A stretch of 64,000 nucleotides of DNA from contig NZ_CP026304.1 of assembly GCF_003054555.1 (NCBI RefSeq), positions 4,030,001-4,094,000 of the forward strand, given 5' to 3'. Of this stretch, positions 11,036 to 13,899 are shown in pieces; position 1 is the stretch's first letter; each line of letters starts with the position of its first letter. A program made the translations under genes and the position numbers. This DNA comes from Streptomyces lunaelactis (GTDB lineage: Bacteria; Actinomycetota; Actinomycetes; Streptomycetales; Streptomycetaceae). The notes below the pieces were generated by a model. That model was not told where the DNA came from and ran no database searches. It saw only the letters and a list, made by a program, of their open reading frames with translations.

Positions 11036-11163
11036 GCCTGTTGTCGTTCTCGGTGCCGGCGCCTCGGCGCATCTGAGTGCGATTCCGCTCCGGCGCGGGA
11101 CGGCTACGAAGAGCCGACGGAAGAGGCCGTCGAAGTCGAAGAGAACGCGTCCAGCGGCGCGAA

Positions 11164-12036
11164 CTACCAGCCTGGCTCCCGCGAGATCCCCCACAATTCG
11201 TCGAAGTACTCGCGCCATGCCTTGATCGCTTCTGTCGCGTCCTTGCCGCCCGCGTGGTGCCAGCGCGTGAGCATCGAGTTGTACCCCTGAGGGTCCAGGA
11301 CCCTTCTGTCGGCGGCTGCTCCGAAGGGAAAGTCGGTCTTCTCCAGTTTATTGTAGTAACCCTCGAAGACCAGTTGGTCGTTCATCAGGTACAGCTTGAG
11401 AGCGGCCGGCATCCGGAAGAATCTGAACTCGACCCTGAGATCGACCACCCCACCCCGGTCGAGCACTCGCTTGCTCCGCTCCAGCGAGTCCCTGTAGTCC
11501 TTGATCTTCGACTGCAGATACGCACGGAACTCCGGGTCGTCTTCGACCTTCCCCTCCGCCGTCAGTTTGCCGGGCAGCACATTCGGATCCCAGAAGTCGG
11601 GAAGCAGTATCCGTACGTCGACGTTCCGGGTGGGCCCAGGGCGCGTCTTGAGCCGGTCCAACCGCCGTGCCAGCTGATCGATGAGGGTTTCGCCGGTGTA
11701 GCCGATGAAGCCGATACTGACGGTCCGCTCTTCGAATACTTCCTCGAAGTGCTCGGCGAGCTCCCCGGGCCCGACCCGGTCCCTGACAGCCGGCTTCGAG
11801 ACTTCGATCAGCCGCTGTACGGAGCTGTAGAGCGCGTAGCCGACGAGGCTGAGCAGCGCACCGCCAAGGAACGCTTTGTCCTCCAGCGCATCCCCCACGG
11901 GCTTCACGAACTGGGCGACCAGTCCGAGCGCGAAAATGCCGACCAGCAGCCAGCGTGTCACCGCCGACTCGGCACGCTCCTGGAAGTCGGACATGCGCTG
12001 GCGCAAGGACTGATCACTCGACACGAAGCACCCCAA
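11164..12036 (-). CDS. Two-span membrane protein with a PLD-fold-like C-terminal domain
   Basis: A 290-residue protein. Two hydrophobic segments lie near the N terminus (WLLVGIFALGLVAQFV, residues ~28-44; FLGGALLSLVGYALYSSV, ~56-73), followed by a ~200-residue cytoplasmic domain. That domain has VDVRILLP, VDLRVEFRFFRMPAALKLYLMNDQ and ends GYNSMLTRW...WREYFDELWGIS. The same landmarks recur in the C-terminal half of the GntR gene at 12891-13778, so the two share a domain. KLYLMNDQLVFEGYY resembles a phospholipase D-fold strand but has no HKD motif, so it is probably a sensor rather than an enzyme. It is the third gene of a GntR-HAD-membrane unit. Function unknown. Confidence 0.75.
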   Translation of the reverse strand: MGCFVSSDQSLRQRMSDFQERAESAVTRWLLVGIFALGLVAQFVKPVGDALEDKAFLGGALLSLVGYALYSSVQRLIEVSKPAVRDRVGPGELAEHFEEVFEERTVSIGFIGYTGETLIDQLARRLDRLKTRPGPTRNVDVRILLPDFWDPNVLPGKLTAEGKVEDDPEFRAYLQSKIKDYRDSLERSKRVLDRGGVVDLRVEFRFFRMPAALKLYLMNDQLVFEGYYNKLEKTDFPFGAAADRRVLDPQGYNSMLTRWHHAGGKDATEAIKAWREYFDELWGISREPGW

Positions 12037-12074
12037 GTCCCGTGAACGACAAGTCAGTTGGCTATCGTGCCGGA

Positions 12075-12782
12075 TCAGTCGCCGCCAGTGACAGCCCTGA
12101 GTGCCGCCAATACCTCCGAGATCGCGCCAACGACATCCGACGCCCCGGACCGCAGGAGCAGATCTTCCTTCCGACGGTTGCGGGCATAGCCCAGAAACGG
12201 CACGCCCGCCTGGCCGGCAGCGATGACATCGGCAGGAGTGTCCCCGATCATCAGCGTCCTGTCCGGTTCCGTCCCGGTGGATTTCAGTGCACGACAGATC
12301 GAGTCGGGATGCGGCTTGAGCAAGGCCGGGTCGAAGGTGCGGCCGTGGATGTGGGGCTCGAAGTACGCCAGTAGGTCATGCCTGGCCAAGTAGGTCTTCA
12401 GCGCACGAGGCGAGTTGTTGGACGCAACGGCGAGCTTCCGGTCACGGCCCCTGAGTTCACGGATCAACGAGGCGGCCCCCAAGGTGGGCGTGGCGCTCAC
12501 CGCTGCTTTCAGTTCCTCCACCGTCAGCCACTCCTCCATGTTCCGGACAAGCGGACTGGCAGGAGCCACTTCAGCCAGCACCTTGAGGATCTCGAGTGGG
12601 TCCCTCGAGTGGCGCGTCTGCTCAGGCAGCAGCCTCGGCGCCCCGCGCTGCTCGAGCAAGTCCACAAGAGACTCGGCGATCCCCGACGCCGGATACCCGG
12701 CGAAGAGGGCACACACCGGACCGTCGAAGTCAAAGATCACGCACTCAGCGGCCGCCAGAAGTCCGTGCAAGTCGGCGCCCAC
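12075..12782 (-). CDS. HAD-family phosphatase
   Basis: A 235-residue haloacid-dehalogenase hydrolase of the phosphoglycolate phosphatase-like type, cleaving a phosphate ester through an aspartyl-phosphate. All four motifs are present: motif I VIFDFDGPV with nucleophile Asp18 and Asp20, motif II ASNNS, motif III KPHPD with the Lys, and motif IV MIGDTPADVIAA. A helical cap lies between motif I and II (~residues 30-90). The substrate is unknown. It sits between a GntR regulator and a membrane protein that share a domain (gaps of 108 and 38 bp, same strand), suggesting it makes or removes the ligand they sense; that is inference. Confidence 0.88.
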   Translation of the reverse strand: MGADLHGLLAAAECVIFDFDGPVCALFAGYPASGIAESLVDLLEQRGAPRLLPEQTRHSRDPLEILKVLAEVAPASPLVRNMEEWLTVEELKAAVSATPTLGAASLIRELRGRDRKLAVASNNSPRALKTYLARHDLLAYFEPHIHGRTFDPALLKPHPDSICRALKSTGTEPDRTLMIGDTPADVIAAGQAGVPFLGYARNRRKEDLLLRSGASDVVGAISEVLAALRAVTGGD

Positions 12783-12800
12783 AGCACTCCGTCCATAGGG

Positions 12801-12823
12801 TGCATCGTTGTGCCGACGATACA
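12801..12823 (-). promoter_or_regulatory. Inverted repeat upstream of the HAD gene
   Basis: TGCATCGT (12801-12808) and ACGATACA (12816-12823) form a 7-of-8 inverted repeat with a 7-base spacer, 19 bases upstream of the HAD start. The arm size and spacing suit a dimeric repressor. It could be the binding site of the neighbouring GntR protein, though it does not resemble the dyad at 13813-13857. Confidence 0.4.
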
Positions 12824-12890
12824 GAGCGTGTTCCCCGTCCGCCTCCGGCTGCCGTCGGCCTCGTACTCCTGTTACGGCGCTGGTGGCTGA

Positions 12891-13778
12891 TCAGGGTGCA
12901 AGGTTGATTTCTGTGGCGATCGTCCCCCACATGCCGTCAAACCACGCCTGCGCCTGTGTCACAAAAGCCTCGTCCCGCTTCTCCCCGCCGCGGCCGAAGG
13001 GGAAGAGCATCGAATCGCTGCCGAGCGCGTCGTAGATCTCGACCGACGTGTCATCGATCTGCTCCTCGCGCCGCTTGACGGTGTAGAACGCGAACAGCGC
13101 CTCCGAGCCGTTCAGCAGATAGAGCTTCACGGGCGGGGTGAAGGGCAGCGCCTTCAAGGTCACCTCGACGTCGATGCTGCGCGTGCTGCGAAGCGCCCGG
13201 AGGCTGTGCCGCAGGACGGCGCCTTGGGTGTTGCGCAGCGACAGCCAGTGTTCGTGCACCCGCCTCTCGTCGCCGGAACTCTCGGCGGGGCGAGGGAAGG
13301 CCAGGTCCAGGTCGCGGGCCGGCAGCAGAAGCCGGACCTTCACCGTGGCGGGGGTGACCCGGCCGGCGCGGATCAACTGCAGCGGCTCGGCGAGCGCGAG
13401 GTTGAGTGTCTCCGCGGTCAGACAGATCGCGTCGATGCGGACGTGGGGCGCCTCGAACGCCTCCATGATGCGAGGCCCCAGGCCGGCAATCGTCTGCTGG
13501 GGCTCTTCGGCTGCCGGGCCCGCGCCGGACGAGAGTTCGGCGATGCGGGCCGGAGCTCCCCTGGTCCTGCCCTCGAGCAGGCCGGCTTCCTCGAGGTGCG
13601 TCAGCGCCTGCCGGATCGCGCCCCGCTCCACCCCGAACTGCTCGGCCAGGCTCTCCTGCGTCGGCATCCGGTCACCGGCCTTCAGGACGCCGGTACGGAT
13701 GCGCTCGCTCAGAATCTCCGCCACTTCTCCGGACGTGGGCCTTCTGGTGCCGTTCACTCCACTGCGCTCATGGGTCAC
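12891..13778 (-). CDS. GntR-type regulator with a sensor domain shared with the nearby membrane protein
   Basis: A 295-residue regulator. Residues ~12-80 form a GntR winged helix (PTSGEVAEILSERIRTGVLKAGDRMPTQESLAEQFGVERGAIRQALTHLEEAGLLEGRTRGAPA). The rest is not a FadR or UTRA domain. It contains ICLTAETLNLAL, VKVRLLLP, DVEVTLKALPFTPPVKLYLLNGSEALFAFY and GSDSMLFPFGRG...AWFDGMWG, which line up in order with the C-terminal domain of the membrane protein at 11164-12036. Such ~295-residue wHTH proteins are known in streptomycetes, but I recall no function. It is first in a same-strand trio with the HAD phosphatase, with a 10 bp inverted repeat upstream. Confidence 0.8.
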   Translation of the reverse strand: MTHERSGVNGTRRPTSGEVAEILSERIRTGVLKAGDRMPTQESLAEQFGVERGAIRQALTHLEEAGLLEGRTRGAPARIAELSSGAGPAAEEPQQTIAGLGPRIMEAFEAPHVRIDAICLTAETLNLALAEPLQLIRAGRVTPATVKVRLLLPARDLDLAFPRPAESSGDERRVHEHWLSLRNTQGAVLRHSLRALRSTRSIDVEVTLKALPFTPPVKLYLLNGSEALFAFYTVKRREEQIDDTSVEIYDALGSDSMLFPFGRGGEKRDEAFVTQAQAWFDGMWGTIATEINLAP

Positions 13779-13812
13779 AACAGAACGCTACAACTCGACG
13801 CCACCCACTGAT

Positions 13813-13857
13813 AGTTGTCCACCGATTGTCTGAGTAGTCCGCCAAGCGTGGACAACT
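13813..13857 (-). promoter_or_regulatory. Perfect 10 bp inverted repeat upstream of the GntR gene
   Basis: AGTTGTCCAC (13813-13822) and GTGGACAACT (13848-13857) are exact reverse complements separated by 25 bases, 35 bases upstream of the GntR start at 13778. The spacer contains TTGTCTGAGTAGTCC, which carries further TTGTC half-motifs. The layout suits GntR autoregulation. Confidence 0.5.
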
Positions 13858-13899
13858 CCAATGAAGTTGGTGCCAACTTGGCCGACGGGGGGATCCGCC

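Follow-up and report, generated by a model that had tools for sequence, protein, structure and literature searches.

The closest described system is the devA region of Streptomyces coelicolor, in which DevA, a GntR regulator with an effector-domain class of its own, negatively autoregulates its own gene together with devB, a putative phosphatase gene, and in which devE is a tandem duplicate of devA (57.6% identity between DevA and DevE; PMC3187754). DevA is a known regulator of development, of a kind that controls spore formation, and the metabolite sensed by it was still to be identified as of that 2011 paper. A comparable locus is present in Streptomyces lunaelactis (contig NZ_CP026304.1, positions 4,030,001 to 4,094,000; this whole stretch of 64,000 nucleotides is referred to as the window, and the positions below are counted within it). 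It consists of three minus-strand genes in the order GntR regulator, HAD-IA phosphatase and two-span membrane protein, exactly as the original prediction, made from the DNA alone, had described. The regulator and the membrane protein carry homologous C-terminal domains, predicted to adopt a phospholipase D (PLD) fold with a degenerate catalytic motif and therefore called pseudo-PLD domains. Judged from sequence, the membrane-anchored relative of the DevA effector domain is a new addition to the DevA/DevB-type module. The features concerned are as follows.

12891..13778, minus strand: DevA-like GntR regulator with an N-terminal winged helix (PF00392) and a C-terminal pseudo-PLD effector domain
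12894..13499, minus strand: shared pseudo-PLD domain, cytosolic copy (GntR protein)
13110..13133, minus strand: degenerate HKD motif PVKLYLLN (PxKx4N) of the regulator
12075..12782, minus strand: HAD-IA phosphatase occupying the devB position, with the DFDG, SNNS, KPHP and GDTPAD motifs all present
11164..12036, minus strand: two-span membrane protein with a C-terminal pseudo-PLD domain (open reading frame start TTG at 12036)
11797..11991, minus strand: pair of predicted membrane helices, at residues 2-27 and 41-66 in the 276-residue form
11176..11814, minus strand: membrane-anchored copy of the shared pseudo-PLD domain, as matched by profile; the second helix overlaps its first residues
11380..11403, minus strand: degenerate HKD motif ALKLYLMN (AxKx4N) of the membrane protein

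The homology covers about 190 C-terminal residues of the two proteins. BLASTP aligns this single pair over 191 residues with 25% identity (E 2e-8), and profile-profile comparison of 57 membrane-protein with 47 regulator sequences reaches 99.3% (E 6.9e-21, 192 columns) from alignments that are both shallow (Neff, the effective number of sequences, 2.9 and 2.6). The latter alignment runs through the landmarks by which a shared domain had originally been proposed. Searched against its own genome, the membrane protein retrieves at E<=0.1 just itself and this GntR gene. In a tree of 161 domains, 34 membrane rows and the second half of a split copy are separated from all regulators by a branch supported at 99/94, which indicates that the two forms separated long ago and are not the product of a recent duplication in place. 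The tree was rooted at its midpoint and carries a long-branch warning, the window's membrane row being among the longer ones. The split copy itself (L083:8478-9307, genome G201) is a membrane-protein gene broken into two open frames of 136 and 197 residues.

AlphaFold models and structure comparison, the check suggested along with the original prediction, assign both domains to the PLD fold; the predicted order of strands and helices matches, and each model retrieves PLD-fold structures. These structural statements rest on predicted models, and for the GntR model most of the top VIA rows are winged helix, with fewer rows behind its C-terminal domain. The HKD strand, located by sequence pattern, was read in 162 domains: the Lys is retained in 158, the His is found in none and Asp is replaced by Asn in 151. 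Three domains contain an H.K....D string, but at columns other than those of the HKD strand. On these models the domains have the fold of the PLD superfamily and, with HxKx4D at the active-site strand degraded to xKx4N, are predicted to be catalytically dead; the PLD-like fold without HKD recognized at the outset agrees with this. The domain alignment, used to search solved structures by sequence, gave no match, the membrane-protein alignment gave two weak matches and nothing more, and among 28 domain members no Pfam family was matched by more than one.

The remaining parts of the three proteins are more conventional. The winged helix of the regulator matches PF00392 (E 3e-16), and the HAD protein matches PF13419 (E 3e-18) and TIGR01509, both above cut-off, and carries the four motifs of HAD subfamily IA, with the catalytic Asp. 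No Pfam family at a useful E-value was obtained for the C-terminal half of the regulator or for the two-span protein (V-SNARE alone, E 0.15), and a PHROGs search returned nothing past the winged helix. The two spans seen by the original prediction are recovered as two predicted N-terminal helices, the second of them borderline (19-residue hydropathy peaks of 1.87 and 1.55), and the 276-residue database form of the protein fits a start at ATG 11994. The intergenic gaps measure 108 bp and, according to the membrane-protein start chosen, 38 or 80 bp. Since a terminator scan (two sites against 1.5 expected) placed none within either gap, the three genes likely form one transcript. Near-identical DNA of the locus was sought in plasmids and none was found.

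The relation to DevA/DevB is based on context. Most of the Streptomyces relatives read have the locus GNAT - GntR - GntR - HAD, in a neighbourhood common to many Streptomyces (the GNAT label comes from Pfam; asparaginase-like, D-Tyr-tRNA deacylase-like, GcvT-like and Fur-like neighbours were labelled by eye). Because this arrangement matches the described devE-devA-devB, the window pair is read as DevA/DevB type. The C-terminal domain of the window regulator belongs to the same family as both members of the tandem pairs fitting the published devE-devA arrangement, and the regulator is followed by a putative phosphatase/hydrolase gene, in the devB order (PMC3187754). The members of 30 tandem pairs share on average 62.7% identity with each other (range 58.7-67.9), and the single window copy shows a mean identity of 55.7% and 56.2% to the two members. 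By its context and by the descriptions, rather than by alignment to a named DevA sequence, the GntR-HAD pair is very likely a DevA/DevB locus and, to judge from the genes of relatives, devB would belong to the HAD type. In the main text of PMC3187754 the words 'phosphotransferase' and 'membrane' both have 0 occurrences, and none of the titles listed by literature searches, with coverage mostly without subscription papers, deals with a kinase at the devA locus or with a membrane protein encoded there.

A DevA-like regulator was detected in 203 of 295 Streptomyces genomes (E<=1e-20), and the membrane protein in at least 34 copies in at least 33 of the 295; the latter are lower bounds, as copies were chosen by query coverage among the matches listed and at most eight candidates were scored per genome. 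All 33 listed membrane-protein genomes are among the 203 (Fisher p 3e-6, an indicative value, the genomes being related; the counts in general come for the most part from related genomes within a single genus). Of the 34 listed copies, 31 have GntR and HAD genes no more than 8 kb away, so that the genome-wide search for the triplet, also suggested in advance, reveals co-occurrence beyond close relatives, and 28 of the 34 are also within 8 kb of an APH-type kinase. The nearest same-strand upstream module gene of the membrane protein is the kinase in 20 cases, the HAD gene in 10 (in one of these, L105, it is nearest yet 3.8 kb off) and another regulator in one, while in three genomes (L098, L099 and L139) the membrane gene stands with an HAD gene as a separate pair on the opposite strand. 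Out of sample, in seven further genomes for which both places are listed (G419, G547, G579, G719, G774, G780 and G830), the membrane-protein and DevA-like places are found on one contig, no more than about 8 kb apart, in 7/7. The regulator-HAD pair is more widespread than the membrane protein: the sensor domain as such was detected in at least 44 genomes of the class out of 394, in 9 of 137 genera, and outside Streptomyces, where 15 genomes gave a match, the HAD gene is adjacent in all 11 loci read. Two further proteins bear the sensor domain on another N-terminus and precede an HAD gene: L146:1296-2378 (weak HTH_3, E 0.004, below cut-off) and L149:5271-6320 (without Pfam match). Their architectures suggest that the association of sensor domain and HAD is independent of the GntR winged helix.

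The kinases of the relatives (PF01636) occur in three forms: (i) a single protein of about 360 residues; (ii) a tandem of two; (iii) a fusion with HAD. The last was met once, in L068:6556-8421 (G123), a single open frame that encodes both an APH kinase and an HAD phosphatase and precedes the membrane protein. The signature HxDxHxxN...(I/V)DW(E/D) is present in 49 of 74 APH domains; 23 of the remaining 25 have HGDLNPWN and are mostly second domains of tandems, and two (L093, L094) differ. As annotated from sequence, APH-type kinases at devA-region loci with the membrane protein are a new observation. The HAD motifs are well kept in the 68 domains read (DFDG-type in 62, KPxP-type in 59, SNN-type in 66 and GDxxxD-type in 68). 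In L085:5085-6173 (G243) the motif I nucleophile Asp is changed to Ala (WAFDG), perhaps giving a dead phosphatase, and a second HAD alongside has DFDG. In the window genome the relatives' APH kinase family has no match at E<=1e-6, in a search whose positive controls were recovered, and no match to this family was found in G243 and G020, which carry two HADs and a membrane protein each.

Two repeats have been identified in the region upstream of the regulator.

13864..13879, no strand: candidate DevA operator, palindrome AAGTTGG-N2-CCAACTT
13813..13857, no strand: inverted repeat AGTTGTCCAC, with 10-bp arms and a 25-bp gap

Exact AAGTTGG-N2,3-CCAACTT has one copy in the 8.57-Mb genome, that at 13864-13879. 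The newly noted palindrome AGTTGG-N3-CCAACT is found in 68 of 82 upstream regions (the N2 form of the window counted), compared with 2.5% of 300-bp stretches drawn at random from these loci, the 82 regions being related and not independent. Exact AGTTGGNNNCCAACT has 30 sites in 15 other genomes, and 24 of them are located at devA/devE promoters. On these grounds the palindrome is a strong candidate for the operator of a local autoregulator. A wider regulon was considered and rejected, the remaining six of the 30 sites being no more than in the reversed-pattern control (17 sites); two of the six, G104:C1:13105 and G104:C1:11331304, are near the ends of an 11.36-Mb contig and lie perhaps in a terminal repeat. 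Of the two inverted repeats originally regarded as dedicated to the operon, the one at 13813-13857 exists, but while 38 of the 82 upstream regions contain its motif, 2/82 have it in both orientations, so that one arm is common and the pair is not conserved; the conserved palindrome adjoins it. The other, at 12801-12823, has only 5-bp arms by eye; the repeats of at least 6 bp listed for this gap are situated elsewhere (12812-12859). A second element, GTTGTAGCG (window 13778-13799), was noted in 35 of 82 devA-like upstream regions, whereas about 1% of random stretches contain it. Its window copy stops 7 bases short of the GTG start, which suggests that the promoter is fixed in place and the leader very short.

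The history of the window locus can be partly read from what lies behind the membrane gene.

11099..11159, minus strand: scrap of the start of a second HAD (devB) gene, about 60 bp

The GNAT, regulator and ABC genes of the window have 73-83% DNA identity to their counterparts in L086-L089 and L091, loci which carry regulator-HAD-kinase and no membrane protein. The window HAD matches the HAD of these loci in short pieces only (66-77% DNA identity) and is left unplaced in the HAD tree. The scrap resembles the resident devB start (L087, 79% over 61 bp, E 4e-7; L089, 80% over 51 bp, E 1e-6); it scores 11.7 bits in a protein-level profile, against at most 4.8 in shuffled copies, and 59 at the DNA level, against at most 34 in 50 shuffles. 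The simplest reading would be that an HAD-membrane pair took the place of the resident devB and kinase while the regulator stayed the same; the alternative is loss from a longer ancestral gene array.

The locus may accordingly be viewed as a DevA/DevB-type module with an added membrane-anchored sensor, in which both pseudo-PLD domains would read a phosphate-bearing metabolite, a reading considered evenly poised between right and wrong. It is a functional inference from computed results, namely the homology of the domains and their predicted fold, the lost motif, the association of the genes, the conserved palindrome, the devB scrap and the lack of a kinase match in this strain. The DevA-like GntR protein would be a local autorepressor at the palindrome 13864-13879, its sign taken from S. 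coelicolor DevA; its pseudo-PLD domain would bind the metabolite, presumed to be phosphate-bearing, and thereby alter repression of the operon; the HAD phosphatase would remove or lower the metabolite; and the APH-type kinase, present at most of the related loci that have the membrane protein, would make it or a relative of it. The pseudo-PLD domain of the two-span protein would read the same or a close metabolite, presumably shared, at the cytosolic face of the membrane, an orientation suggested by the positive-inside rule, applied by eye, with a presumed output at the membrane. That one phosphate-bearing ligand is read in the cytosol and at the membrane is plausible, and is strengthened by the APH kinases and the kinase-phosphatase fusion at related loci. 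A more far-reaching and distinctly tentative proposal is that the devA region is a private small-molecule signalling circuit, in which APH kinase and HAD write and erase a dedicated phosphorylated metabolite and the pseudo-PLD domains read it, in the cytosol for control of transcription and, when anchored, at the cell boundary; if true, it would link a membrane output with the choice to form aerial hyphae.

Several observations weigh against the sensor-module reading. Three listed membrane-protein copies (L084, L103, L140) are solitary, away from the locus. Matches reaching the membrane helices are confined to Streptomyces (E<=1e-30, order-wide, 293 genomes), and the two matches from other genera in the order-wide sample span the sensor domain alone. 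The two sensor domains are about 25% identical and fall on opposite sides of the 99/94 branch, and their ligand specificity may therefore differ. No kinase of the family is seen in 3/33 listed membrane-protein genomes (that of the window, G243 and G020), so that the kinase is not obligatory. The palindrome is absent from 14/82 upstream regions, several devA copies included, and the DevA identity is drawn from context and descriptions, not from the S. coelicolor locus itself.

The main rival is a tether or anti-repressor, in which the pseudo-PLD domain of the membrane protein would bind the effector/oligomerisation domain of the DevA-like regulator and keep it at the membrane, itself reading no ligand. 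Single-domain PLD proteins function as dimers, which would suit such pairing, as would the same domain in both proteins and the DevA-like regulator in 33/33 listed membrane-protein genomes. The low identity and the old split make a mixed dimer less likely, and in L098, L099 and L139 the membrane gene is paired with HAD on the other strand; the tether is judged unlikely, if the best placed of the alternatives. A shade less probable is the same fold with different jobs: an old domain copied onto an anchor would sense an unrelated thing, e.g. a lipid head group, with its neighbourhood inherited. The age of the split, the three solitary copies and the best Foldseek matches of the membrane-protein model, which are to MITD1 (E 4e-4), are in its favour, but 31 of the 34 listed copies remain beside HAD and regulator, with gene order, strand and the presence of kinases varying among them.

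A stress or anti-phage defence module, of which the layout had originally been called typical, is very improbable. One distant relative (L152:5662-10769 / L209:9662-14772, G503) couples the sensor domain to a non-GntR N-terminus, helix-turn-helix-like by eye and without Pfam match, directly upstream of a BREX PglY/BrxC gene (PADLOC 1473 bits), and this speaks for defence. The association was rejected: among the matches listed, full-length relatives are found in 5/392 genomes and PglY is near one of the five, one of these loci (L208) ending at 11.7 kb at a contig end. PADLOC gave no match for the membrane protein or the HAD, nor for two kinase proteins that were also run, and for GntR only weak matches in the winged helix-turn-helix region (best E 3e-4). 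The neighbourhood, as noted, is widespread in Streptomyces, and the nearest studied system is developmental (PMC3187754). That the two-span protein works at the membrane as an enzyme of PLD type is just as improbable, since the predicted PLD fold and the retained Lys are outweighed by the lost nucleophile His, the Asn for Asp, the misplaced H.K....D strings and the single half-domain.

Compared with known proteins, the pseudo-PLD domains share their predicted fold with the PLD-superfamily nucleases Nuc, NucT and Zucchini, in which the HKD motif is catalytic, whereas it is degraded here. Human MITD1, the structural neighbour of the membrane-protein model through its PLD-like domain, is a eukaryotic ESCRT-III partner (PMC9477494). 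TrmB of Pyrococcus is an archaeal sugar-responsive repressor whose sugar-contact residues are named in PMC4158304; its DNA-binding family differs from that of the window regulator, and membership was rejected, PF01978 staying below cut-off (E 0.17, 12.2 bits against 25.6) and PF11495 being absent from the Pfam results. The likeness to DevA/DevB is closer: a GntR regulator with its own effector-domain subfamily is followed by a putative phosphatase/hydrolase gene. With the predicted pseudo-PLD fold, a kinase and phosphatase at one locus, a candidate operator and a membrane relative, the ligand of DevA would become directly testable via HAD and kinase substrates. In contrast to most Streptomyces relatives read, which have a tandem paralogue, the window has one devA-like gene and no devE, and it differs from DevA/DevB as described in possessing a membrane protein that bears the same effector domain.

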